The notes under the pieces are model-generated. The model ran no database searches, was not told the origin of the DNA, and was given only the letters and a program-made list of their open reading frames with translations. 64,000 nt of DNA, taken from the NCBI RefSeq assembly GCF_003236295.1, contig NZ_POTW01000029.1:1-64000 (forward strand), written 5' to 3'. Within the stretch, counting starts at the first letter, position 1, and the number at the start of each line of letters is the position of its first letter. This document shows, one piece after another, positions 8,783 to 63,373 of this stretch. Origin of the DNA: Jiangella anatolica. Lineage in GTDB: Bacteria; Actinomycetota; Actinomycetes; Jiangellales; Jiangellaceae. The translations under genes and the position numbers were made by a program.

Positions 8783-9919
8783 GTGAACCTCAGCATCGTG
8801 CGCCGCACGCTGGCACCCGTCGCGGTCGCCAGCGCGGCCGCCCTCGTGCTGGCGGCCTGCGGGTCGGACCCCGAAACGGACAACTCCTCGGAGGAGTCGC
8901 CTGACGGCGGCAGCAGCGAGGGCTCCGACGGCGGCAGTGACCTGTCCGGCACCCTGAACGGCGCCGGCGCCAGCTCTCAGGAGTCGGCGGTCCAGGCCTG
9001 GATCGCCGGGTTCCAGCAGCAGAACCCCGACGTGACCATCAACTACTCGCCGGACGGTTCCGGCGCGGGCCGCGAGCAGTTCTCCTCCGGCGCGGTCGCG
9101 TTCGCCGGCTCCGACGCCGCGCTCGACGAGGAGGAGCTGGCCGCCGCCGAGACCGCGTGTGGCGCTCCGGCCGTCGACCTGCCGCTGTTCATCGACCCGA
9201 TCGCGGTCGCCTACAACCTGCCCGGTGTCGACGGCCTGCAGCTGGGCCCGGTGACGCTGGCGAACATCTTCAACGGCACCATCACCACGTGGAACGACCC
9301 GGCCATCGCGGCGGACAACCCGGACGCGACGCTGCCGGACACCGCGATCACGCCGGTGCACCGCTCGGACGACTCCGGCACCACGGAGAACTTCACCGAG
9401 TACCTCGCGGCCGTCGCCCCGGCGGAGTGGCCGCACGAGCCCGACGGCGTCTTCCCGGAGTCGCTCGGTGGCGAGGCCGGCGCCCAGACCGCCGGTGTCA
9501 TCGCTGCCGTCCAGGCGGCCGAGGGCACCATCGGCTACGCCAGCGCCGCCGCGGTCGGCGACCTGCAGACCGCCGCCATCGGCGTCGGCTCGGAGTTCGT
9601 CGAGTACTCGGCCGAGGCCGCCGCGGCCGTCGTCGACGCGTCGCCGCGGGCCGAGGGCCGGGCCGAGAACGACATCGCGCTGGAGCTGGCCCGCGACACC
9701 ACCGAGTCCGGCGCCTACCCGATCGTGCTGGTCTCGTACACGATCGTCTGCACCGCGTACTCCGACCCGGCGGTCGGCGACCTGGTGAAGGCCTACGTCG
9801 GCTACGTCGCCAGCGACGAGGGCCAGCAGGCCGCCGCCGACGCTGCCGGCTCGGCGCCGATCTCGCCGGAGCTGCAGGCCGAGATCCAGGCGGTCGTGGA
9901 GTCGATCGAGGTCGGCTGA
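8783..9919 (+). CDS. pstS: Phosphate ABC transporter substrate-binding lipoprotein PstS
   Basis: High-affinity phosphate-binding protein anchored outside the membrane, 378 residues. The signal peptide ends in a lipobox LAAC with the lipidated Cys at 26, followed by a Ser/Gly/Asp/Glu-rich linker to about 55. The mature protein has the family segments LNGAGASSQESAVQAW, PDGSGAGREQF, FAGSDAAL, NIFNGTITTWNDPAI and HRSDDSGTTENFTEYL that form the phosphate site. The start is the GTG at 8783 because AGGAAGG lies eight to nine bases upstream; an open frame continues further 5' without a ribosome site. PHO boxes lie upstream, and a strong hairpin separates it from pstC. Confidence 0.96.
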   Translation: MNLSIVRRTLAPVAVASAAALVLAACGSDPETDNSSEESPDGGSSEGSDGGSDLSGTLNGAGASSQESAVQAWIAGFQQQNPDVTINYSPDGSGAGREQFSSGAVAFAGSDAALDEEELAAAETACGAPAVDLPLFIDPIAVAYNLPGVDGLQLGPVTLANIFNGTITTWNDPAIAADNPDATLPDTAITPVHRSDDSGTTENFTEYLAAVAPAEWPHEPDGVFPESLGGEAGAQTAGVIAAVQAAEGTIGYASAAAVGDLQTAAIGVGSEFVEYSAEAAAAVVDASPRAEGRAENDIALELARDTTESGAYPIVLVSYTIVCTAYSDPAVGDLVKAYVGYVASDEGQQAAADAAGSAPISPELQAEIQAVVESIEVG

Positions 9920-9943
9920 GTCCTATCCTGTGCACGAAGTTCG

Positions 9944-9990
9944 ACGTCGCCGGGCGGCTCGTCCCACTGTGGGACGGACCGCCCGGCGTC
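9944..9990 (+). terminator. Strong hairpin between pstS and pstC (probable attenuator)
   Basis: Nested inverted repeats: the outer arm CGCCGGGCGG pairs with CCGCCCGGCG, and the inner arm CGTCCCAC pairs with GTGGGACG around a one-base centre. There is no T-run. Because pstCAB continue in the same direction, it probably ends some transcripts or protects the 3' end of pstS mRNA, giving more binding protein than membrane subunits. Confidence 0.7.
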
Positions 9991-10041
9991 CGCACGACAT
10001 CCGGTTGACCCGCGAGACCTCCACGACCCGGAGCTGACGCC

Positions 10042-10995
10042 GTGACCACCACCAAACCTCCGCCGACCGAACCGCCCGCCGTCGCGCCGCGGGCCAAGGC
10101 GCGACCAGGCGACCGCATCTTCTCCCGGTCCGCACAGCTCGCGGGCATCCTGATCCTGGTCATCCTGGCCGGCGTGGCCGCGTTCCTCGTCCGCGAGGCG
10201 CTGCCCACGTTCACGGCCGACCCGTCGGAGATCGACGGCGGCGAGGGCTTCTTCTCCTACGTCTGGCCCCTGGTGTTCGGCACGCTGGCCGCCGCGATCA
10301 TCGCGCTCGTCGTGGCGACGCCGCTGGCGCTGGGCATCGCGCTGTTCATCTCGCACTACGCGCCGCGCCGGCTCGCGCAGGGCCTGGGCTACGTCGTCGA
10401 CCTGCTGGCCGCGATCCCCAGCGTCGTGTTCGGCCTGTGGGGCATCCAGTGGCTGGCGCCGCAGGTGCAGCCGGCCTGGACCTGGCTGGCCGACAACCTC
10501 GGCTTCATCCCGATCTTCACCGGCCCGGCCTCGGCCACCGGCCGGACGATGATGACGGCCGGCGTGGTGCTCGCCGTCATGATCCTGCCGATCATCACCG
10601 CGATCGCCCGCGAGGTCTTCCTGCAGACGCCCACGCTGCACGAGGAGGCCGCGCTGGCGCTGGGCGCGACCCGCTGGGAGATGATCCGGATGGCGGTCAT
10701 CCCGTTCGGCCGGCCCGGCATCATCTCCGGCATCATGCTCGGCCTGGGCCGCGCGCTGGGCGAGACGATGGCGGTGGCCATGGTGCTCTCCACCGGCGGG
10801 TTCACCTGGTCGATGGTGACCGCCGGCAACAGCACGATCGCCGCGGAGATCGCCCTGGACTTCCCCGACTCGTCGGGGCTGAAGACCAACACGCTGATCG
10901 CCGCCGGCCTGGTGCTGTTCGCCATCACGCTGGCCGTGAACATGTTCGCCCGCTGGATCGTGTCGCGCCGCAGTGAGTTCTCGGGGGCCAACTGA
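10042..10995 (+). CDS. pstC: Phosphate ABC transporter permease PstC
   Basis: One of the two membrane channels of the Pst phosphate importer, 317 residues starting at a GTG. A cytoplasmic N-terminal tail precedes six hydrophobic segments beginning at about residue 33 (LAGILILVILAGVAAFLV). The EAA loop that contacts PstB is EEAALALGATRWEMIRMAVIP, followed by GIMLGLGRALGETMAVAMV. The stop overlaps the pstA start as TGATG, so the two are translated together. Confidence 0.95.
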   Translation: MTTTKPPPTEPPAVAPRAKARPGDRIFSRSAQLAGILILVILAGVAAFLVREALPTFTADPSEIDGGEGFFSYVWPLVFGTLAAAIIALVVATPLALGIALFISHYAPRRLAQGLGYVVDLLAAIPSVVFGLWGIQWLAPQVQPAWTWLADNLGFIPIFTGPASATGRTMMTAGVVLAVMILPIITAIAREVFLQTPTLHEEAALALGATRWEMIRMAVIPFGRPGIISGIMLGLGRALGETMAVAMVLSTGGFTWSMVTAGNSTIAAEIALDFPDSSGLKTNTLIAAGLVLFAITLAVNMFARWIVSRRSEFSGAN

Positions 10996-12098
10996 TGTCC
11001 GTAGCCACCAAGCCGCCTGCCCAGAACTCGCTGGCGCACAACCAGCTGCCGCGGTACACGACGCAGCTCGTGCTCGTCGCCTCGGCCGCGGCCGGCGCCG
11101 GCGTGTCCGCCCTGTGGGGCGGGTTCTCCATCGTCTCCTTCGCGGTCCTCTCGGTGCTGATCTTCGTGATCGTCAACACCGTGCTGTCCGCCGTCGTCGA
11201 GGGCCGCCGCAAGGCCGTCGACAAGCTGGTCACCAGCCTCGTCTACACCGCGTTCGGCCTCGCGCTGGTGCCGCTGATCTCGGTCATCTGGTCGGTGCTC
11301 GACAACGGCACCGCCCGGTTCAGCATGGACTTCCTGACGACGTCGATGCGCAACGTCACCGGCCTGAACGACCAGGAGGCGCTGGAGGGCGCCGCGCCGT
11401 TCATCGGCGGCGCGTACCACGCGATCCTCGGCACGTTCCTCATCACCGCCCTGGCGACGCTCATCTCGGTGCCGATCGGCCTGCTCACCTCGATCTACCT
11501 GGTGGAGTACGGCCGCGGCCGGCTGGCCCGGTCGATCACGTTCTTCGTCGACGTGATGACCGGCATCCCGTCGATCGTCGCCGGCCTGTTCGCCGCCGCG
11601 CTGTTCGCAGTGCTGTTCGGCGTCGGCACCCGCAACGGGTTCGCCGGCGCCGTCGCGCTGTCGGTGCTGATGATCCCGGTGGTCGTGCGCTCCAGCGAGG
11701 AGATGCTGCGGATCGTGCCGAACGAGCTGCGGGAGGCGGCCTACGCGCTGGGCGTGCCGAAGTGGCGCACGATCGTCAAGGTCGTCGTGCCGACGGCGAT
11801 CAGCGGCATCGCCAGCGGCGTCACGCTGGCCATCGCCCGCGTCGTCGGCGAGACCGCGCCGCTGATCGTCACCGCCGGCTTCACGTCGTCGATCAACACC
11901 AACCCGTTCTCCGACTGGATGATGTCGCTGCCCGCGTACGTTTACAGTCAGGCGTTGCGCCCGTTGTCCGGTTCGTCACCGCAGCCGAGCTTCGACCGGG
12001 CCTGGGCCGCGGCGCTGACGCTGATCCTCATCGTCATGCTGCTCAACCTGGTCGCCCGCCTCATCGCCCGCCTGTTCGCCCCGAAGACCGGCCGCTAG
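10995..12098 (+). CDS. pstA: Phosphate ABC transporter permease PstA
   Basis: Second membrane channel subunit of the Pst importer, 367 residues. It has an N-terminal pair of hydrophobic segments (about 25–65), a periplasmic-side stretch, and a core with STLIT-type helices. The EAA loop is LREAAYALGVPKWRTIVKVVVP, followed by IARVVGETAPLIVTAGF. It is longer than E. coli PstA (296) because of the extra N-terminal membrane region usual in actinobacteria. It overlaps pstC by one base and pstB follows after 18 bases. Confidence 0.95.
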   Translation: MSVATKPPAQNSLAHNQLPRYTTQLVLVASAAAGAGVSALWGGFSIVSFAVLSVLIFVIVNTVLSAVVEGRRKAVDKLVTSLVYTAFGLALVPLISVIWSVLDNGTARFSMDFLTTSMRNVTGLNDQEALEGAAPFIGGAYHAILGTFLITALATLISVPIGLLTSIYLVEYGRGRLARSITFFVDVMTGIPSIVAGLFAAALFAVLFGVGTRNGFAGAVALSVLMIPVVVRSSEEMLRIVPNELREAAYALGVPKWRTIVKVVVPTAISGIASGVTLAIARVVGETAPLIVTAGFTSSINTNPFSDWMMSLPAYVYSQALRPLSGSSPQPSFDRAWAAALTLILIVMLLNLVARLIARLFAPKTGR

Positions 12099-12116
12099 AG
12101 CAAGGAAACCGCCCTT

Positions 12117-12896
12117 ATGTCCAAGCGCATCGACGTCGGCGATCTCAACGTCTACTACGGCAACTTCCTCGCGGTCGAGGGTGTGTCGATGGCCATCGAG
12201 CCCCGCTCGGTCACGGCCTTCATCGGCCCGTCCGGCTGCGGGAAGTCCACCTTCATCCGCACGCTCAACCGCATGCACGAGGTCATCCCCGGTGCGCGGG
12301 TGCAGGGCAAGGTGCTGCTCGACGGCGAGGACCTCTACGGTCCCAGCGTCGACCCCGTCACCGTCCGGCGCCAGGTCGGCATGGTGTTCCAGCGCCCGAA
12401 CCCGTTCCCGACGATGTCCATCCGCGACAACGTGCTGGCCGGCATGAAGCTCAACAGCAACCGCATGAGCAAGAGCGCGGCCAACGAGGTCGTCGAGCGG
12501 TCGCTGCAGGGCGCGAACCTGTGGAACGAGGTCAAGGACCGCCTCGACAAGCCCGGCTCGGGCCTCTCCGGCGGCCAGCAGCAGCGCCTGTGCATCGCCC
12601 GGGCCATCGCCGTCCAGCCGGACGTGCTGCTGATGGACGAGCCGTGCTCGGCGCTGGACCCGATCTCGACGCTGGCCATCGAGGACCTGATCGGCGAGCT
12701 GAAGCAGAACTACACGATCGTCATCGTGACGCACAACATGCAGCAGGCCGCCCGGGTCAGCGACCGCACGGCGTTCTTCAACATCGCCGGCACCGGCAAG
12801 CCCGGCAAGCTGATCGAGATGGACGACACCACGAAGATGTTCACCAACCCGAGCGTGAAGGCGACCGAGGACTACGTCTCCGGCCGCTTCGGCTGA
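12117..12896 (+). CDS. pstB: Phosphate ABC transporter ATP-binding protein PstB
   Basis: ATPase of the Pst importer, 259 residues. Walker [10 protein letters not shown] is at 37–45, the Q-loop is in [16 protein letters not shown] (diagnostic of PstB), the signature [16 protein letters not shown] starts at 150, Walker B is [13 protein letters not shown] with catalytic Glu at about 175, and the switch His is in [21 protein letters not shown]-type sequence precedes the ATG. It is the last gene of the operon; the Pit gene ends four bases downstream on the other strand. No phoU follows. Confidence 0.97.
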
Positions 12897-12899
12897 CGC

Positions 12900-13907
12900 T
12901 CAGAGTGAGTTGAGTCCCGGGACCAGGTGCAGCAGGCCGTAGCTGAGCGCGGCCGCCAGCCCGGCCATCGGGATGGTGAGCACCCAGGCGGTGACGATGT
13001 TGCCGGCGACGCCCCAGCGCACCGCCGACAGCCGCTTCGTCGCGCCGACGCCGATGACGGCTGACGTGATCGTCTGGGTGGTCGAGATCGGCGCGTGATA
13101 GGCGAACGCCGTCGTGTAGAGGACGCCGGCCGCGACGGACTCGGCGGCGAAGCCCATCGGCGGGTCCAGGTGCACGATGCGGCGGCCGAGCGTGCGCATG
13201 ATCCGCCAGCCGCCGGCGTACGTGCCCGCCGCGAGCGCCGTCGCCGCCAGCACGATCACCCACCACTGGACGTCGAAGCCGGACTGGTAGCCGCCCACCA
13301 CCAGCGCCAGCGTGATCACGCCCATCGTCTTCTGCGCGTCCTGCAGCCCGTGGCCGAGCGCCATCGCGGCCGCGCTGAACGTCTGCGCCAGCCGGAAGCC
13401 GCGGTTCACCCGGCCCGGATGGGACCGCCGGAAGATCCACTGGATCGCCGTCATCACCAGGAACGCGAGGGCGAAGCCGACGACGGGCGAGACCACCATC
13501 GGGATGACGACCTTCTCCAGGATGCCGGTCCACTTCACGGTGTTCGCCGACGCGATGGCCGCGCCGACCAGCCCGCCGATCAGCGCGTGCGACGAGGACG
13601 ACGGCAGCCCGAGCCACCAGGTGATGAGGTTCCAGGCGATCGCACCCACCAGCGCGGCCAGCACGACCAGCAGCCCGCTGTCGCCCTCGGGCGCCTCGAT
13701 GATGCCGGCGCCGACCGTCTGCGCGACGCCGGTGCCGAGGAACGCGCCGACGAGGTTCATCGCCGCCGCCATCAACAGCGCCGCTCGCGGCGTGAGCGCC
13801 CGGGTGGACACCGACGTGGCGATCGCGTTCGCGGCGTCGTGGAAGCCGTTCGTGTAGTCGAACGACAGCGCGACGACGATCACCGTCAGGATGAGCGCGA
13901 GCTCCAC
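12900..13907 (-). CDS. pit: Inorganic phosphate transporter, PiT family
   Basis: Low-affinity phosphate (metal–phosphate) symporter, 335 residues with about ten membrane segments. The N-terminal PiT signature FDYTNGFHDAANAIATSVSTRALTPRAAL is followed later by the inverted repeat of the family (GLQDAQKTMGVITLAL and the C-terminal TTQTITSAVIGVGATKR). It lies four bases after the DUF47 gene, so both are one transcript. It converges on pstSCAB, so high- and low-affinity phosphate uptake sit back to back. Confidence 0.94.
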   Translation of the reverse strand: MELALILTVIVVALSFDYTNGFHDAANAIATSVSTRALTPRAALLMAAAMNLVGAFLGTGVAQTVGAGIIEAPEGDSGLLVVLAALVGAIAWNLITWWLGLPSSSSHALIGGLVGAAIASANTVKWTGILEKVVIPMVVSPVVGFALAFLVMTAIQWIFRRSHPGRVNRGFRLAQTFSAAAMALGHGLQDAQKTMGVITLALVVGGYQSGFDVQWWVIVLAATALAAGTYAGGWRIMRTLGRRIVHLDPPMGFAAESVAAGVLYTTAFAYHAPISTTQTITSAVIGVGATKRLSAVRWGVAGNIVTAWVLTIPMAGLAAALSYGLLHLVPGLNSL

Positions 13908-55769: not shown

Positions 55770-56593
55770 GCGGCCGCCACGTCCGTACCGTCACCGGCCT
55801 GCGCGCGGAGGGCCGGCTCGGGCGCATCGTGCTGGACTGGATGCCGCTGCCCTGGGACACCGTCGTCGACCACTACGCGGTGTACGCCGCGCCTGACGGC
55901 GGCCCGTCGACGCTGCTGGCCAAGACGGTCTACCCGCACTACGTGCACAGCGGCCTGGGCGGCAACGCCCGCCGGTTCACGTATCGCGTCGTCACGGTCG
56001 ACGCGGCCGGCGCGCGCTCGGAGCCGTCCGCGCCGTTGACCGCCAGCAGCCAGGTCTCGGTGACGGCGACCGGCTCGCCGCTCGCGGTGGTCGGGCAGTT
56101 CGACGGCAAGGGCCTGGAGTTCGCGCTGTCGCCGGCCGGCTACGCCCGCTACCCCGCGACGTTCCCCGGCGGCGTCGACTTCCGGGCCGGCGCCGCCGCG
56201 CCGGGGACCGGCTGGAGCTACCTGCACCCGGGCCCGTCGGACGCGTGGGCCGGCCGCCGGACGCACACATTCCGGCTCCGCTTCTCGCTGGACACCGCGC
56301 CCGCCGGCGAGGTCTGGCTGGCGATCTGGCTGATCGACAGCCACGCGACGATCCCCGGCTCGTCGACGCTGGACGTCAACGGGACGGCGGTGGACCGGCT
56401 GCGGTTCGAGGGCGGCGGGACGCGCGGCTCGCTGGAGGGCGACAGCACCGTCCCCGGCACCCGGCTGCGCCCGTCCTACCTGGAGCGGCCGCTCCCGCCG
56501 CGCCTGCTGACGGCCGGAGAGAACGTGCTGACGCTGGTGAAGGACGAGGGGTCCTGGATCGCCTGGGACGCGATCGGGCTGTTCGCCGTCTAG
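55766..56593 (+). CDS. Fibronectin III plus lyase-type carbohydrate-binding domain protein
   Basis: 275 residues. The first 95 form an FnIII-like sandwich (VTGLRAEGRLGRIVLDWMPLPWDTVVDHYAVYAAP). The second part resembles the C-terminal sandwich of rhamnogalacturonan lyases (family 4): FRLRFSLDTAPAGEVWLAIWLIDSHATIPGSSTLDVNGT and LTAGENVLTLVKDEGSWIAWDAIGLF. No catalytic domain and no signal peptide are seen, although it is translationally coupled to Tat-exported PhoD. It may stay in the cell, travel with PhoD, or its true start lies elsewhere. Confidence 0.75.
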   Translation: MSGRHVRTVTGLRAEGRLGRIVLDWMPLPWDTVVDHYAVYAAPDGGPSTLLAKTVYPHYVHSGLGGNARRFTYRVVTVDAAGARSEPSAPLTASSQVSVTATGSPLAVVGQFDGKGLEFALSPAGYARYPATFPGGVDFRAGAAAPGTGWSYLHPGPSDAWAGRRTHTFRLRFSLDTAPAGEVWLAIWLIDSHATIPGSSTLDVNGTAVDRLRFEGGGTRGSLEGDSTVPGTRLRPSYLERPLPPRLLTAGENVLTLVKDEGSWIAWDAIGLFAV

Positions 56594-57852
56594 ATCGCGA
56601 CCGGGGCGACGACGGAGCCGTCGGCCAGGCGCAGCTTCAGGGCGCCGACGGCGGTGGCGGCCAGCTCGCCGGCCCGGTCGCCGTCGGGGTCGACGGCGAG
56701 GACGTGGCCGACGCGGTCGTTGTTGTCACGGGGGCGGCGGACGGGACCGGGGACGTCGAGCTGCCAGCGGACGACCGCCGGGTCCGCGGCCAGCTCGTCC
56801 CGGCCCTCGACGGCGGTGACGACGCCGTCGACCGGCGACAGCACGAACGCGACGGCAGCCGTACCGTTCGCCCGCGCTTCGAGCGACGGGGTGCGGCCCA
56901 GCGCGAGGTCGACCAGCAGCGCCAGCGGGTTCACCCCGGTCACGGTGCGGACCAGGTCGAACACGTAGCCGCCGCCCTGCCGCGGGTTGATCTCGACGAT
57001 CCGCGGCCCGGACGGCGTCAGCCGCAGCTCGGTGTGGCTCAGCCCGTGCGAGTAGCCGATCGCGGCCAGCGCGGCGCGGACGTGCTCGGTGACGTCCGCG
57101 GTGACGGCGGGCGGCAGCGGCGCCGGGAACACGTGCCCGGCCTCGACGAACGTCGGCGTGACACTCTTGCCGGTGATGCCGAGCACCGTCGTCCGGCCGG
57201 CGACGGTGATCGCCTCGACGCTGACCTCGGGACCGGGCAGGACGTCCTCCAACAACAGCCGGCGGGCCAGCGGCTGGTCCCGGCTGTTCCGCTCGACGGA
57301 GCGCACCTCGTGGAACGCGTCCTTCAGCGCCGCCTCGCCGTCGACCAGGTGCACCGACGTGCCGGAGTTGAGGTCCACCGGCTTCGCGACCAGCGGGAAG
57401 CCCAGCTCCGTCGCACTGGCCAGCGCGTCCTCCCACGTCGCCGCCGTGGCGAAGCGCGGCTGCGGCAGCCCGGCCCGCTTCAGCACCGTCCGCACCGCGT
57501 CCTTGCGCACCGCCCGCCGCATGATGTCCGGCGACGCGCCGGCCAGGCCCAGCATCCGGCCCAGCTCGGCGACGGCGTCGAGGTAGTAGTCGCAGGTCGT
57601 CAGCACGCCGTCGATGCGCCGCCGACAGACGATGCCGATGACCGCGCCGGTCATCGCGGCCTTGTCGTTCGTGTCGACGACGATGACCTCGTCGGCGTCG
57701 CGGACCACCGGGTGCGCGGCGCCGTCGACGTCCGGGTAGAGCGCCGGGTCGCGGGTGAACAGGATGTAGTCGTGACCCAGCTCGCGCAGCAGCGGCGGCA
57801 GCGCCAGCCCGGTCGACTGCACCCAGCTCTCCACCATCAGCAACGTGGCCAC
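56590..57852 (-). CDS. ATP-grasp ligase
   Basis: 420-residue carboxylate–amine ligase of the amino-acid-ligase/BacD-like type. An N-terminal preATP fold (LLMVESWVQSTGLALPPLLRELGHDYILFTRDP) is followed by GFPLVAKPVDLNSGTSVHLV (ATP-binding Lys157), LLLEDVLPGPEVSVEAI, and the metal motif RIVEINPRQGGGYVFDL (287–300), then a C-terminal lobe. GGAGGG precedes GTG 57852, two bases after the NAS-like gene stop. It probably joins an amino acid to the NAS-like product. Its stop overlaps the convergent FnIII gene. Confidence 0.9.
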   Translation of the reverse strand: MATLLMVESWVQSTGLALPPLLRELGHDYILFTRDPALYPDVDGAAHPVVRDADEVIVVDTNDKAAMTGAVIGIVCRRRIDGVLTTCDYYLDAVAELGRMLGLAGASPDIMRRAVRKDAVRTVLKRAGLPQPRFATAATWEDALASATELGFPLVAKPVDLNSGTSVHLVDGEAALKDAFHEVRSVERNSRDQPLARRLLLEDVLPGPEVSVEAITVAGRTTVLGITGKSVTPTFVEAGHVFPAPLPPAVTADVTEHVRAALAAIGYSHGLSHTELRLTPSGPRIVEINPRQGGGYVFDLVRTVTGVNPLALLVDLALGRTPSLEARANGTAAVAFVLSPVDGVVTAVEGRDELAADPAVVRWQLDVPGPVRRPRDNNDRVGHVLAVDPDGDRAGELAATAVGALKLRLADGSVVAPVAI

Positions 57853-57854
57853 TC

Positions 57855-58718
57855 TCAGCCCTCCGCCCGGGCCAGGATCGCCGAGTTGATGACGTCGTTC
57901 ACCGGGTGCACCTCCGTCAGAGGCTCGAAGCCGTCGAGCGCGGTCCGGTCGATCGGCGGGTAGAGCAACGTGCGCAGCCCACGCGCGCTGCGGGCGAGCA
58001 GAACGGCACCCGGTCGCATCGTCTCGGCCAGCCGGCGCAGGATCCGCACCTTCGCCTCCGGCGTCTCGCCGACGAGCGCGGCCAGCACGACCACGTCGTA
58101 GCCGGACAGGTCCGCCGTCAGCACGTCCGCCTCGTGGAAGCCGAGCTCGCCGTAGCCGAGCGCGGCGCACACCGCGGCGCCGGCGTGCAGCGCCACCGGG
58201 TCGCGGTCGAAGTTGTCGACCGACGCGTCCAGCTCGCCGGCCAGGTAGAGCGAGCTCAGTGGCAGCGGCCCGGACCCGACGAACGCGACCGAGCGCACGC
58301 GGCGCGGCAGCGCGGAGGCGAGGATGCCGATCTCCATCCGGCTGAGCTGCCGGTAGTTGCCGAAGTAGGGGAACCGGGCGAGCTCCTCGCGCGGATCCCG
58401 GCCGGCGACGATCCGGTTCGCCCAGGCCTGCTCCAGCTCGCCCTCGCCGCGCGCGCAGAGGGCGCGCAGGCGAGGGGCGACGTGCTGGATCTCGACATCG
58501 TTGAGGACGGCCGGGACGGTCTCGGCCGGCGCGGTGAGCACCAGCCGGACCAGCCGGTCGAACAACCCGTCCACCTCCGGCCCCGGCCGCAGGTCGTCGC
58601 GTGCGGCCAGATCCCGGTACAACTCGCACACCGAGGCAGTAATGTCCTCGGCCGTGGGCCGGCGGCGGCCGGTCCGGTCGGTTTGACCGAATATGCTGCT
58701 AGTGAGACTCATGTTCAT
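57855..58718 (-). CDS. Nicotianamine synthase-like protein
   Basis: 287 residues, the size of bacterial and archaeal NAS-like enzymes (CntL group) that transfer aminobutyrate units from SAM to make metal-chelating nicotianamine or opine metallophores. Family marks are RFPYFGNYRQLSRMEIGIL (115–133), SVAFVGSGPLPLSSLYLA (143–160; the GSGPLPL SAM loop), VDNFDRDPVAL (168–177) and the following YDVVVLAALVG. The start is ATG 58718 or 58712. It is followed after two bases by an ATP-grasp ligase and preceded by an SDR, with no opine dehydrogenase beside it. The product is unknown. Confidence 0.85.
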   Translation of the reverse strand: MNMSLTSSIFGQTDRTGRRRPTAEDITASVCELYRDLAARDDLRPGPEVDGLFDRLVRLVLTAPAETVPAVLNDVEIQHVAPRLRALCARGEGELEQAWANRIVAGRDPREELARFPYFGNYRQLSRMEIGILASALPRRVRSVAFVGSGPLPLSSLYLAGELDASVDNFDRDPVALHAGAAVCAALGYGELGFHEADVLTADLSGYDVVVLAALVGETPEAKVRILRRLAETMRPGAVLLARSARGLRTLLYPPIDRTALDGFEPLTEVHPVNDVINSAILARAEG

Positions 58719-58719
58719 C

Positions 58720-58740
58720 GCGGCTGATCATGACACAGCC
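58720..58740 (-). terminator. Small hairpin between the SDR and NAS-like genes
   Basis: CGGCTG pairs with CAGCCG around nine bases directly before the NAS-like start. It may end the SDR transcript or modulate translation of the next gene. Confidence 0.4.
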
Positions 58741-62119: not shown

Positions 62120-63373
62120 TCAGCGGGCGCCGACGAGGTCCGGCTCGGGCACGCACTCCTCAGCCACCAGCGCGCTCAGCGCCGGCCGCCCGGCCCGCGT
62201 CGGGCGACGGGCCAGCCCGGCCAGCAGAACGCCGGTGAGCACCGCCATCGCCAGCACCAGCCAGCCGGCCGGCCGCGTGCCGCCGCCGTCGATGATCGCG
62301 CCGGTGACCAGCGCGATCGGCAGGAACGCCAGCCACGACAGCGCGCTCACGCCGGACGCGACGCCGGAGCGGACGGTGGACGGCACCGCGTCGTGCAGCA
62401 GCTTCGACAGGTGGATGCCGGCGAGGATCGTCAGCACCGCCATCAGCACCTGTGCCGGCACGATCAGCGCGGCCGTCGCACCGGTGGTCAGTACCAGCCC
62501 GGTCGCGGCCAGCAGCACCGTCACGGCCATCGTCACCCGCGGGGAGTCCAGCCGGACCCGTCCGGCCAGCGCGCCGGCGAACCCGAACGCCGCGGTCAGC
62601 GCCGCCCAGTACGGCCCGAACGCGACCGCGGGCACGGCCAGCGCGACCAGCCACAGCGGCCCGAACTCGAACAGGAACTGCGTCGTGCCGGCGGCCAGCA
62701 CGATCGCGGCCACGATCGGCAGCAGGCGGCCTCGGTCGGCGAGGATCCGCGCCGTCTGCGCCAGGTGGCAGCGCAGGGACCCGGGCCGGCCGACCTCGTG
62801 CAGCCGCGGCTCGCGGAACCACAGCAGCGCCAGGCACGCCGCCAGCATGAACGGCACGGTGAGGAAGTAGGTGGCGCGCAGCGACAGCAGGCCGGCCAGC
62901 CAGCCGCCGAGCAGGGAGCTGGACACCAGCGAGACGCTCTCGACCAGCCGGATCCGGCCGAGCGTGCGCTCGTACAGGTCACTGCTCCCGGTCTCCTCGA
63001 GCACGGTGTCGTAGACGACGGCGTCGAGGGTGCCGGTGGACATCGCGAAGTAGAAGCCCAGCGAGAAGGCGCTGAGCAGGTACAGCGGGACGCCGGTGCT
63101 CAGGCCGCCGAGCAGCGCCGCGCCGGTCAGCCCGGCGAAGCCCACGAGCAGCACCGACCGCCGGCTCCACCGGTCGGCCAGCACGCCGGACGGCAGCTCG
63201 ACCAGTGGCACCGTCGCCGCGTACACGGCGGTCATGATGCCGATGGTCATCGGGTCGAAGCCGATCTCGTCGAGGAACAGCTTCTCGATCGGGACCCACA
63301 GCAGGATCCCCTGCAGGACGACGGCCAGCTGAAGCGGACGCAGCCGGCGGCGCAACGCGGTCTGGTTCGGCAT
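62120..63373 (-). CDS. MFS transporter
   Basis: 417 residues, 12 membrane segments, with the loop motif LADRWSRRSVLLVGFAGL and the start LRPLQLAVVLQGILLWVPIEKLFLDEIGFDPMTIGIMTAVYA. DAVVYDTVLEETG is a trait of a subfamily annotated as macrolide/multidrug-like exporters. The substrate is not known. It is a separate unit from the sigma/anti-sigma genes upstream. Confidence 0.9.
   Translation of the reverse strand: MPNQTALRRRLRPLQLAVVLQGILLWVPIEKLFLDEIGFDPMTIGIMTAVYAATVPLVELPSGVLADRWSRRSVLLVGFAGLTGAALLGGLSTGVPLYLLSAFSLGFYFAMSTGTLDAVVYDTVLEETGSSDLYERTLGRIRLVESVSLVSSSLLGGWLAGLLSLRATYFLTVPFMLAACLALLWFREPRLHEVGRPGSLRCHLAQTARILADRGRLLPIVAAIVLAAGTTQFLFEFGPLWLVALAVPAVAFGPYWAALTAAFGFAGALAGRVRLDSPRVTMAVTVLLAATGLVLTTGATAALIVPAQVLMAVLTILAGIHLSKLLHDAVPSTVRSGVASGVSALSWLAFLPIALVTGAIIDGGGTRPAGWLVLAMAVLTGVLLAGLARRPTRAGRPALSALVAEECVPEPDLVGAR

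Follow-up and report, generated by a model that had tools for sequence, protein, structure and literature searches.

Organization of the locus

The DNA analyzed here is a stretch of 64,000 nucleotides from the actinobacterium Jiangella anatolica (contig NZ_POTW01000029.1 of assembly GCF_003236295.1, positions 1 to 64,000), referred to below as the window. Its minus strand carries a gene for a nicotianamine synthase (NAS) followed by a gene for an ATP-grasp ligase, with two bases between the TGA stop codon of the former and the GTG start codon of the latter. An earlier note on this DNA had claimed a NAS-family protein with an ATP-grasp amino-acid-ligase-type gene two bases after it, and had proposed that both proteins be searched against Pfam. 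Both assignments were borne out. The 57855-58718 protein matched the NAS profile PF03059 with 214 bits (3.4e-63; cut-off 27.1), and the motifs FPYFGNY, GSGPLPL and NFDRDP named in the note all are found in its translation. The ligase matched PF13535 (ATP-grasp_4) with 61.8 bits (cut-off 27) and PF18603 (LAL_C2) with 56.1 bits (cut-off 29.4). The J. anatolica genome contains one NAS gene. Gene calls were obtained with a home-made caller and start positions are approximate. The features of the locus are as follows:

57855..58718, minus strand: nicotianamine synthase, assigned to the plant type, 287 residues, ATG start (PF03059, 214 bits; comparison with AtNAS1; model confidence 92.2)
56590..57852, minus strand: ATP-grasp ligase, L-amino-acid-ligase type, 420 residues, GTG start (PF13535 and PF18603; 3vot by sequence and fold)
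58700..58718, minus strand: conserved 19-base element ATGAACATGAGTCTCACTA over the NAS start codon (family form in 20 of 20 loci)
58703-58717, minus strand: inner 15-mer of the element, candidate imperfect Zur box (one mismatch to the Streptomyces coelicolor motif)
58726..58737, minus strand: promoter-like TGTGTCATGATC, ending 7 bases before the start codon

The synthase resembles plant enzymes

The window NAS is 37.5% identical to the plant enzyme AtNAS1 over 275 residues (E 6e-55) and 25.7% identical to MtNAS, the archaeal thermonicotianamine synthase, over 222 residues. The AtNAS1 query was checked against the landmarks and numbering printed in PMC10248798, with which it agreed in length (320), C69, E73, E77, Y106, 206-VGMD-209, 287-TRGCMFMPCNCS-298 and others. 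As described in that source, AtNAS1 activity requires E77, Y106, E73 and VGMD, of which E73 and VGMD differ from microbial NAS-like proteins (PMC10248798). Residues C69, E73, E77 and Y106 of AtNAS1 align with C88, E92, E96 and Y118 in the window protein, and the equivalents of E73, E77, Y106 and G207 were invariant in 49 of 49 aligned bacterial NAS proteins. This alignment comprised 49 of the 54 available rows, the close Jiangella copies L027, L029, L030, L031 and L032 being left out; the L022 protein entered as a shortened reading of 252 residues, the loci L068 (from the same genome as L045) and L093 were without a called gene, and the weak partial matches L047 and L048 were unused. The VGMD stretch also is represented by four residues in the window protein, but these read VGET, and the match to the plant-type residues therefore is incomplete. 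Only the glycine of the stretch is invariant, and the valine occurs in 46 of the 49 aligned proteins; the VGET reading counts against a plant-like activity. Both the E73 equivalent and the VGMD stretch are missing from MtNAS in the alignment, whereas both positions are present in the window NAS.

The AlphaFold model of the window NAS had a predicted local distance difference test score (pLDDT) of 92.2, with residues 1-15 below 50. Its best structural match in VIA-align was MtNAS (Z 28.6, root mean square deviation 2.4 over 254 residues), with which it has the fold and the catalytic Glu/Tyr pair in common, followed by CntL (Z 24.8). Membership of the CntL type was ruled out by the staphylopine biosynthesis model NF033601, which gave 23.8 bits against a cut-off of 350. 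Thus, the CntL-type framing in the earlier note gave way to assignment of the protein, by its sequence, to the plant type. The enzyme probably makes nicotianamine: because the CntL score lies far under the cut-off and the residues for nicotianamine formation in plants largely are present, nicotianamine is a likelier first product than that of a single transfer. Plant and fungal NAS proteins (PF03059) are similar to the window NAS in sequence, in the catalytic pair E77/Y106, in E73 and in the VG of the VGMD stretch. In contrast to these, the window protein is bacterial, ends with the core domain with no C-terminal extension, and has a constant ligase partner.

The partner is an L-amino-acid-ligase-type enzyme

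LAL_C2 is the C-terminal domain of L-amino acid ligases, in which ATP activates a carboxylate and an amide is formed. The AlphaFold model of the ligase had a pLDDT of 92.5, and the L-amino acid ligase 3vot was its top match in the PDB both by sequence and by fold (Z 38.6, root mean square deviation 3.0 over 391 residues), with YwfE/BacD and then RizA as the next structural matches in VIA-align. The protein therefore belongs to the L-amino-acid-ligase type by domains and by whole-chain fold. It has the same ATP-grasp_4 and LAL_C2 domains and fold as BL00235 (3vot), BacD/YwfE and RizA, but is only 18-23% identical to them in structural alignments and, unlike these enzymes, is paired with a NAS. 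Nicotianamine has three carboxylates and one primary amine, and an aminoacyl-nicotianamine is the simplest product predicted for the ligase.

The two genes are constant partners in Jiangellaceae

The NAS gene was present in 20 of 22 genomes of the family Jiangellaceae, J. anatolica included, and in none of 38 genomes from other families in the class. The ligase was found in the same 20 genomes with scores of at least 679.7 bits, compared to 204 bits for the best relative outside the family in that draw. The two genomes with neither gene are assemblies of 1.7 and 2.3 Mb that are 75 and 81% complete. The genes were adjacent in all 20 NAS-bearing genomes, being separated by one or two bases in 19 loci and overlapping, as called, in L028. 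In a draw across the phylum, NAS was detected in 5 of 396 genomes, among which are J. anatolica and two weak partial matches.

Other neighbors of the pair vary between the family loci. The next gene upstream of NAS in the window encodes a short-chain dehydrogenase (PF00106), for which just 9 of the 19 remaining loci had a match of >70%, in two of them ~6 kb away. This gene, the MFS gene at 62120-63373, and a regulator gene and a phosphatase-like gene, both labeled by eye, were rejected as parts of the system as they are not conserved beside the pair. As adjacency is constant while neighbors change, NAS and the ligase have the appearance of a functional unit and their pairing is not due to chance. 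The ligase is likely to act in the same pathway as NAS. The earlier note had named placement of the 57855-58718 protein outside the NAS family, or lack of joint conservation, as grounds to abandon its proposal; the protein lies within the family and the pair is conserved together, although among the loci surveyed it occurred in a single bacterial family.

The pair has no constant transporter neighbor in the Jiangellaceae loci, in agreement with the remark in the earlier note that no dedicated exporter or importer is evident beside it; this absence weighs against a secreted chelator. The note also had pointed out the lack of an opine dehydrogenase, and none adjoins the pair in the window. Genome-wide, the profile PF10100 had no match in J. 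anatolica or in ten other NAS genomes and a single match, below the cut-off, in the 396 phylum genomes, but it had no match in any control genome either.

NAS genes in other bacteria

A scan of genome contigs retrieved 47 NAS loci, 13 from Jiangellaceae and 34 from elsewhere. The ligase was present in 13 of the 13 family loci and was near NAS in none of the 34 others (tblastn, E 0.001, within the available stretch, which in some cases was short). The other plant-type NAS proteins, from Actinobacteria and Sorangium, are 38-50% identical to the window protein and form the same NAS group, some with Zur-type boxes but with no ligase nearby. A tree of 51 rows with midpoint rooting, in which 15 of the 20 family members were included, grouped these 15 NAS rows as a single clade (99/90), with Promicromonosporaceae, in which no such ligase adjoins NAS, as the sister group (joint branch 100/99). 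Accordingly, it seems that the ligase joined NAS in the Jiangellaceae line. AtNAS1 was located on the side of the window NAS and MtNAS on the other side, although both placements are unsure due to long branches.

The tree also joined AtNAS1 to four Sorangium NAS proteins (88/79), possibly as a long-branch effect. Four loci in Sorangium (Myxococcota; L073, L074, L075 and L078) comprise a plant-type NAS gene followed by an aminotransferase-type gene.

A conserved element overlies the NAS start codon

The family form ATGAACATGARTCTCAYWA of the 19-base element occurs exactly, and exactly once, in the aligned upstream regions of all 20 family NAS loci. The 19-mer was found at one mismatch or fewer in one of the 396 phylum genomes, that of J. 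anatolica, in which the 15-mer core has one copy as well as three sites with two mismatches; the notion of an operator common to several genes was rejected on this count. In Jiangella and Haloactinopolyspora the NAS gene itself begins with the element. Among nine Jiangella NAS genes of the same length, 6 of 6 third bases in codons 1-6 are invariant, compared to 97 of 265 in codons 23-287. This invariance, in a segment for which residues 1-15 of the model have a pLDDT under 50, points to selection acting on the nucleic acid at the NAS start.

TGTGNCATGAT lies exactly just ahead of the ATG codon in 8 of the 20 family loci, and TGTG occurs within 30 bases upstream in 18. We infer that TGTGTCATGATC is a promoter, such that transcription would start at or near the ATG codon and the mRNA would be leaderless. 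The arrangement differs in Phytoactinopolyspora, where the element opens a separate open reading frame of 25-52 codons (MNMNLI...) in all six loci (L022, L026, L028, L033, L036 and L040). In each of the six, the stop codon of this leader frame and the NAS start overlap, which suggests translational coupling of the two. No Rfam family reached the gathering threshold in the window; near the NAS start there was one sub-threshold match to a CRISPR repeat on the opposite strand (E 0.12).

Candidate regulators of the operon

The earlier note had advised a search for zinc- or iron-regulator sites near position 58718. A candidate emerged over the start codon itself, albeit as an imperfect match to a motif that is frequent in the genome. 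Of the 11 set positions in the S. coelicolor Zur motif tGaNNatSatNNtCa (PMC5472717), 10 agree with the element. Among the 34 NAS loci from elsewhere, 7 have a site before the gene with one mismatch or fewer to this motif: a zero-mismatch site, TGAAAATGATTATCA, lies ahead of both Nocardiopsis NAS genes, and sites with one mismatch were detected in Antribacter, Allosalinactinospora, Tamaricihabitans, Saccharopolyspora and YIM 96095. The Antribacter site TGAAAATGAATCTCA, at the called start, is intermediate between the family element and the classical Zur form. A scan with TGANAANNNTTNTCA, the core of the motif quoted in PMC5472717, produced a site equaled by ≤2.1% of random windows in 13 of the 34 other loci. 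Furthermore, in J. anatolica TGACAACCATTGTCA sits between a znuA-like gene and a divergent Fur-family gene, taken as zur; the sequence is present in 18 of the 22 family genomes, with neighbors checked in J. anatolica only.

A number of results weigh against assignment of the element to Zur. It differs at two of 10 set positions from TGANAANNNTTNTCA and from the family's own znuA/zur-type box, and the S. coelicolor motif is common in J. anatolica, with 144 sites at one mismatch or fewer compared to 8 for the reversed control. Between 0 and 10% of random windows matched the Zur motif as well as the family loci did. Four of the 13 loci retrieved with TGANAANNNTTNTCA (L072, L077, L079 and L086) fail with the S. 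coelicolor chromatin immunoprecipitation (ChIP) motif. The eleven NAS loci of Promicromonospora and Myceligenerans all have four mismatches to TGANAANNNTTNTCA, and nine of them also have four to the ChIP motif, with three in L088 and two in L084. The Fur-family and znu-like genes resemble Fur/Zur and zinc-transport models, yet score below the NCBIfam cut-offs. Because of the two mismatches to TGANAANNNTTNTCA and the 144 genomic sites of the looser motif, the Zur assignment is based on the position and conservation of the element, and control of the operon by Zur and zinc is favored slightly.

Scans for IdeR, Fur and a first form of the Zur box, made with consensus strings, extended over the 200 bases ahead of the NAS gene; in Jiangella the element, which overlies the start codon, is outside this region. 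IdeR-type boxes were no better than in shuffled sequences (47 to 100% of shuffles as good) and were rejected. In Jiangella and Haloactinopolyspora the Fur consensus was matched weakly (9 to 79% of shuffles as good). However, in 6 of 6 Phytoactinopolyspora loci a Fur-type match with 6-7 mismatches at the same element surpassed most shuffles (0 to 3%), and for this reason a Fur-family regulator other than Zur is a possible occupant of the element.

Zur-like sequences also were noted at other positions. In J. anatolica, TGAGAATGCTTCTCA at G000:C33:8275-8289 (L113) is just ahead of a CobW_C gene, which is a further candidate Zur target. The Kineosporia loci L080 (6302-8831), L082 and L087 contain a LysR gene, a GNAT gene and NAS in that order; in L080 and L087 the GNAT gene is preceded, on the opposite strand, by Zur-like TGATAATGACTCTCA.

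A proposed route to an amide-linked nicotianamine derivative

The identity of the genes, their constant pairing in the family, the active-site residues, the predicted folds and the conserved element are the observations on which an explanation can be built. The one that we advance, tentatively, is a two-gene, zinc-responsive operon for an amide-linked nicotianamine derivative. NAS would condense aminobutyrate groups from S-adenosylmethionine and close the azetidine ring to yield nicotianamine, as do the plant enzymes. The ATP-grasp enzyme then would activate a carboxylate as an acyl phosphate and form an amide; in the simplest case, an amino acid would be joined to the sole primary amine of nicotianamine. 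The product may chelate zinc or related metals; that it is metal-related in some manner is likely. The operon would have its own promoter and probably a leaderless mRNA, with the zinc sensor Zur acting as its repressor from a site that covers the start codon. The earlier note had envisaged that ligation makes a chelator, which remains plausible chemistry, although the NAS instead appears to be of plant type. A fuller version, in which Jiangellaceae make a class of aminoacyl-nicotianamine or nicotianamine amide metallophores with a Zur site over a leaderless start codon and a coupled leader frame in one lineage, is more doubtful. In that class the ATP-grasp ligase would perform the tailoring that is done by an opine dehydrogenase in pathogens and by an aminotransferase in grasses.

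A parallel exists with the CntL-CntM opine metallophores (staphylopine, pseudopaline and yersinopine), which likewise rely on a NAS-fold aminobutyrate transferase and an adjoining tailoring enzyme. However, the window has an ATP-grasp ligase as the partner in place of an opine dehydrogenase, and no linked transporters are conserved. The match of the NAS fold to CntL might be taken to mean that the enzyme, like CntL, transfers a single aminobutyrate to a starter amino acid, and that the ligase extends this product by an amide. This single-transfer route, which is near to what the earlier note had proposed, is unlikely in view of the low score with the CntL model, the retention in the window NAS of E73 and the VG insertion that are missing from MtNAS, and the tree, which sets the window NAS with AtNAS1 and apart from MtNAS, with the reservations stated above for long branches and midpoint rooting. 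The reverse order, in which the ligase first makes a dipeptide whose free amine is alkylated by NAS, is less likely still. L-amino acid ligases do build dipeptides from free amino acids, and the nearest structures, 3vot, BacD/YwfE and RizA, are of this kind, but NAS is the first gene of the pair. Moreover, NAS occurs with no ligase nearby in 34 of 34 other loci, and its substrate therefore need not come from a ligase.

A further alternative is that the product stays within the cell as a metal buffer, or is another non-secreted metabolite, for example, free azetidine-2-carboxylate (AZE) that is handed to the ligase. The lack of an importer or exporter conserved with the pair, and the fact that nicotianamine works inside plants, are compatible with this suggestion. 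AZE synthases (AzeJ/VioH) represent another fate of S-adenosylmethionine, and some are drawn with ATP-grasp neighbors in PMC11794875. Against it, five other actinobacterial NAS loci have a transport-type gene set in common, and AZE synthases are described as resembling class I methyltransferases (PMC11794875), whereas the window protein belongs to PF03059. Overall, a non-secreted metabolite is improbable to much the same degree as the single-transfer route. That the two enzymes merely are co-transcribed and act in separate pathways is the least credible option: the sister NAS group in Promicromonosporaceae indeed is without such a ligase beside NAS, but adjacency in 20 of 20 genomes, joint absence from 2 of 22 and the changing set of surrounding genes argue to the contrary.

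The proposal of an amide-linked nicotianamine derivative concerns a gene family that is already on record for actinobacteria; for one NAS from a moss, a bacterial donor has been inferred (PMC12454661). The literature searched, from which most subscription journals were absent, yielded no paper in which an ATP-grasp enzyme or L-amino acid ligase is the partner of NAS, no paper on nicotianamine together with Jiangella, and no account of the role of plant-type NAS in these bacteria. The pairing suggests a metal-binding molecule that may be of a new kind and that perhaps is produced under zinc shortage. If correct, it would represent another way to tailor aminobutyrate chelators, and would link the metal-carrier chemistry of plants to bacterial zinc control. 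The constant ligase partner provides a direct handle, with one operon, two enzymes, and a product mass and zinc response that can be tested.

Genomic context of NAS in relatives

Five loci outside Jiangellaceae (L076 and L081 from Nocardiopsis, L085, L094 and L095) possess the common transport-type gene set beside NAS. In L081 the set includes an SBP_bac_5 binding protein, a BPD_transp_1 permease-type protein and an MFS protein, as well as two putative ATP-binding cassette (ABC) ATPases recognized by clustering and by eye. With a Zur-type box in front, these five loci resemble a nicotianamine-only metallophore locus.

Siderophore-type genes are situated near the pair in four of the six Phytoactinopolyspora loci (L022, L026, L028 and L036). 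Those in L026 were identified with Pfam and encode IucA/IucC, a lysine/ornithine monooxygenase, a pyridoxal phosphate-dependent decarboxylase and an aminotransferase; those in L022, L028 and L036 were assigned by clustering, with the L028 aminotransferase also detected by Pfam. IucA/IucC is present in three of the four loci, L036 having only the decarboxylase and aminotransferase ~6 kb away. The transport-type and siderophore-type contexts both speak for metal acquisition, but the latter would point to iron and thereby against a zinc-responsive operon. In L022, two ABC-exporter-type genes (ABC_membrane and ABC_tran; 9820-13412) immediately precede the pair and have the same orientation, an arrangement seen in one of the six Phytoactinopolyspora loci.

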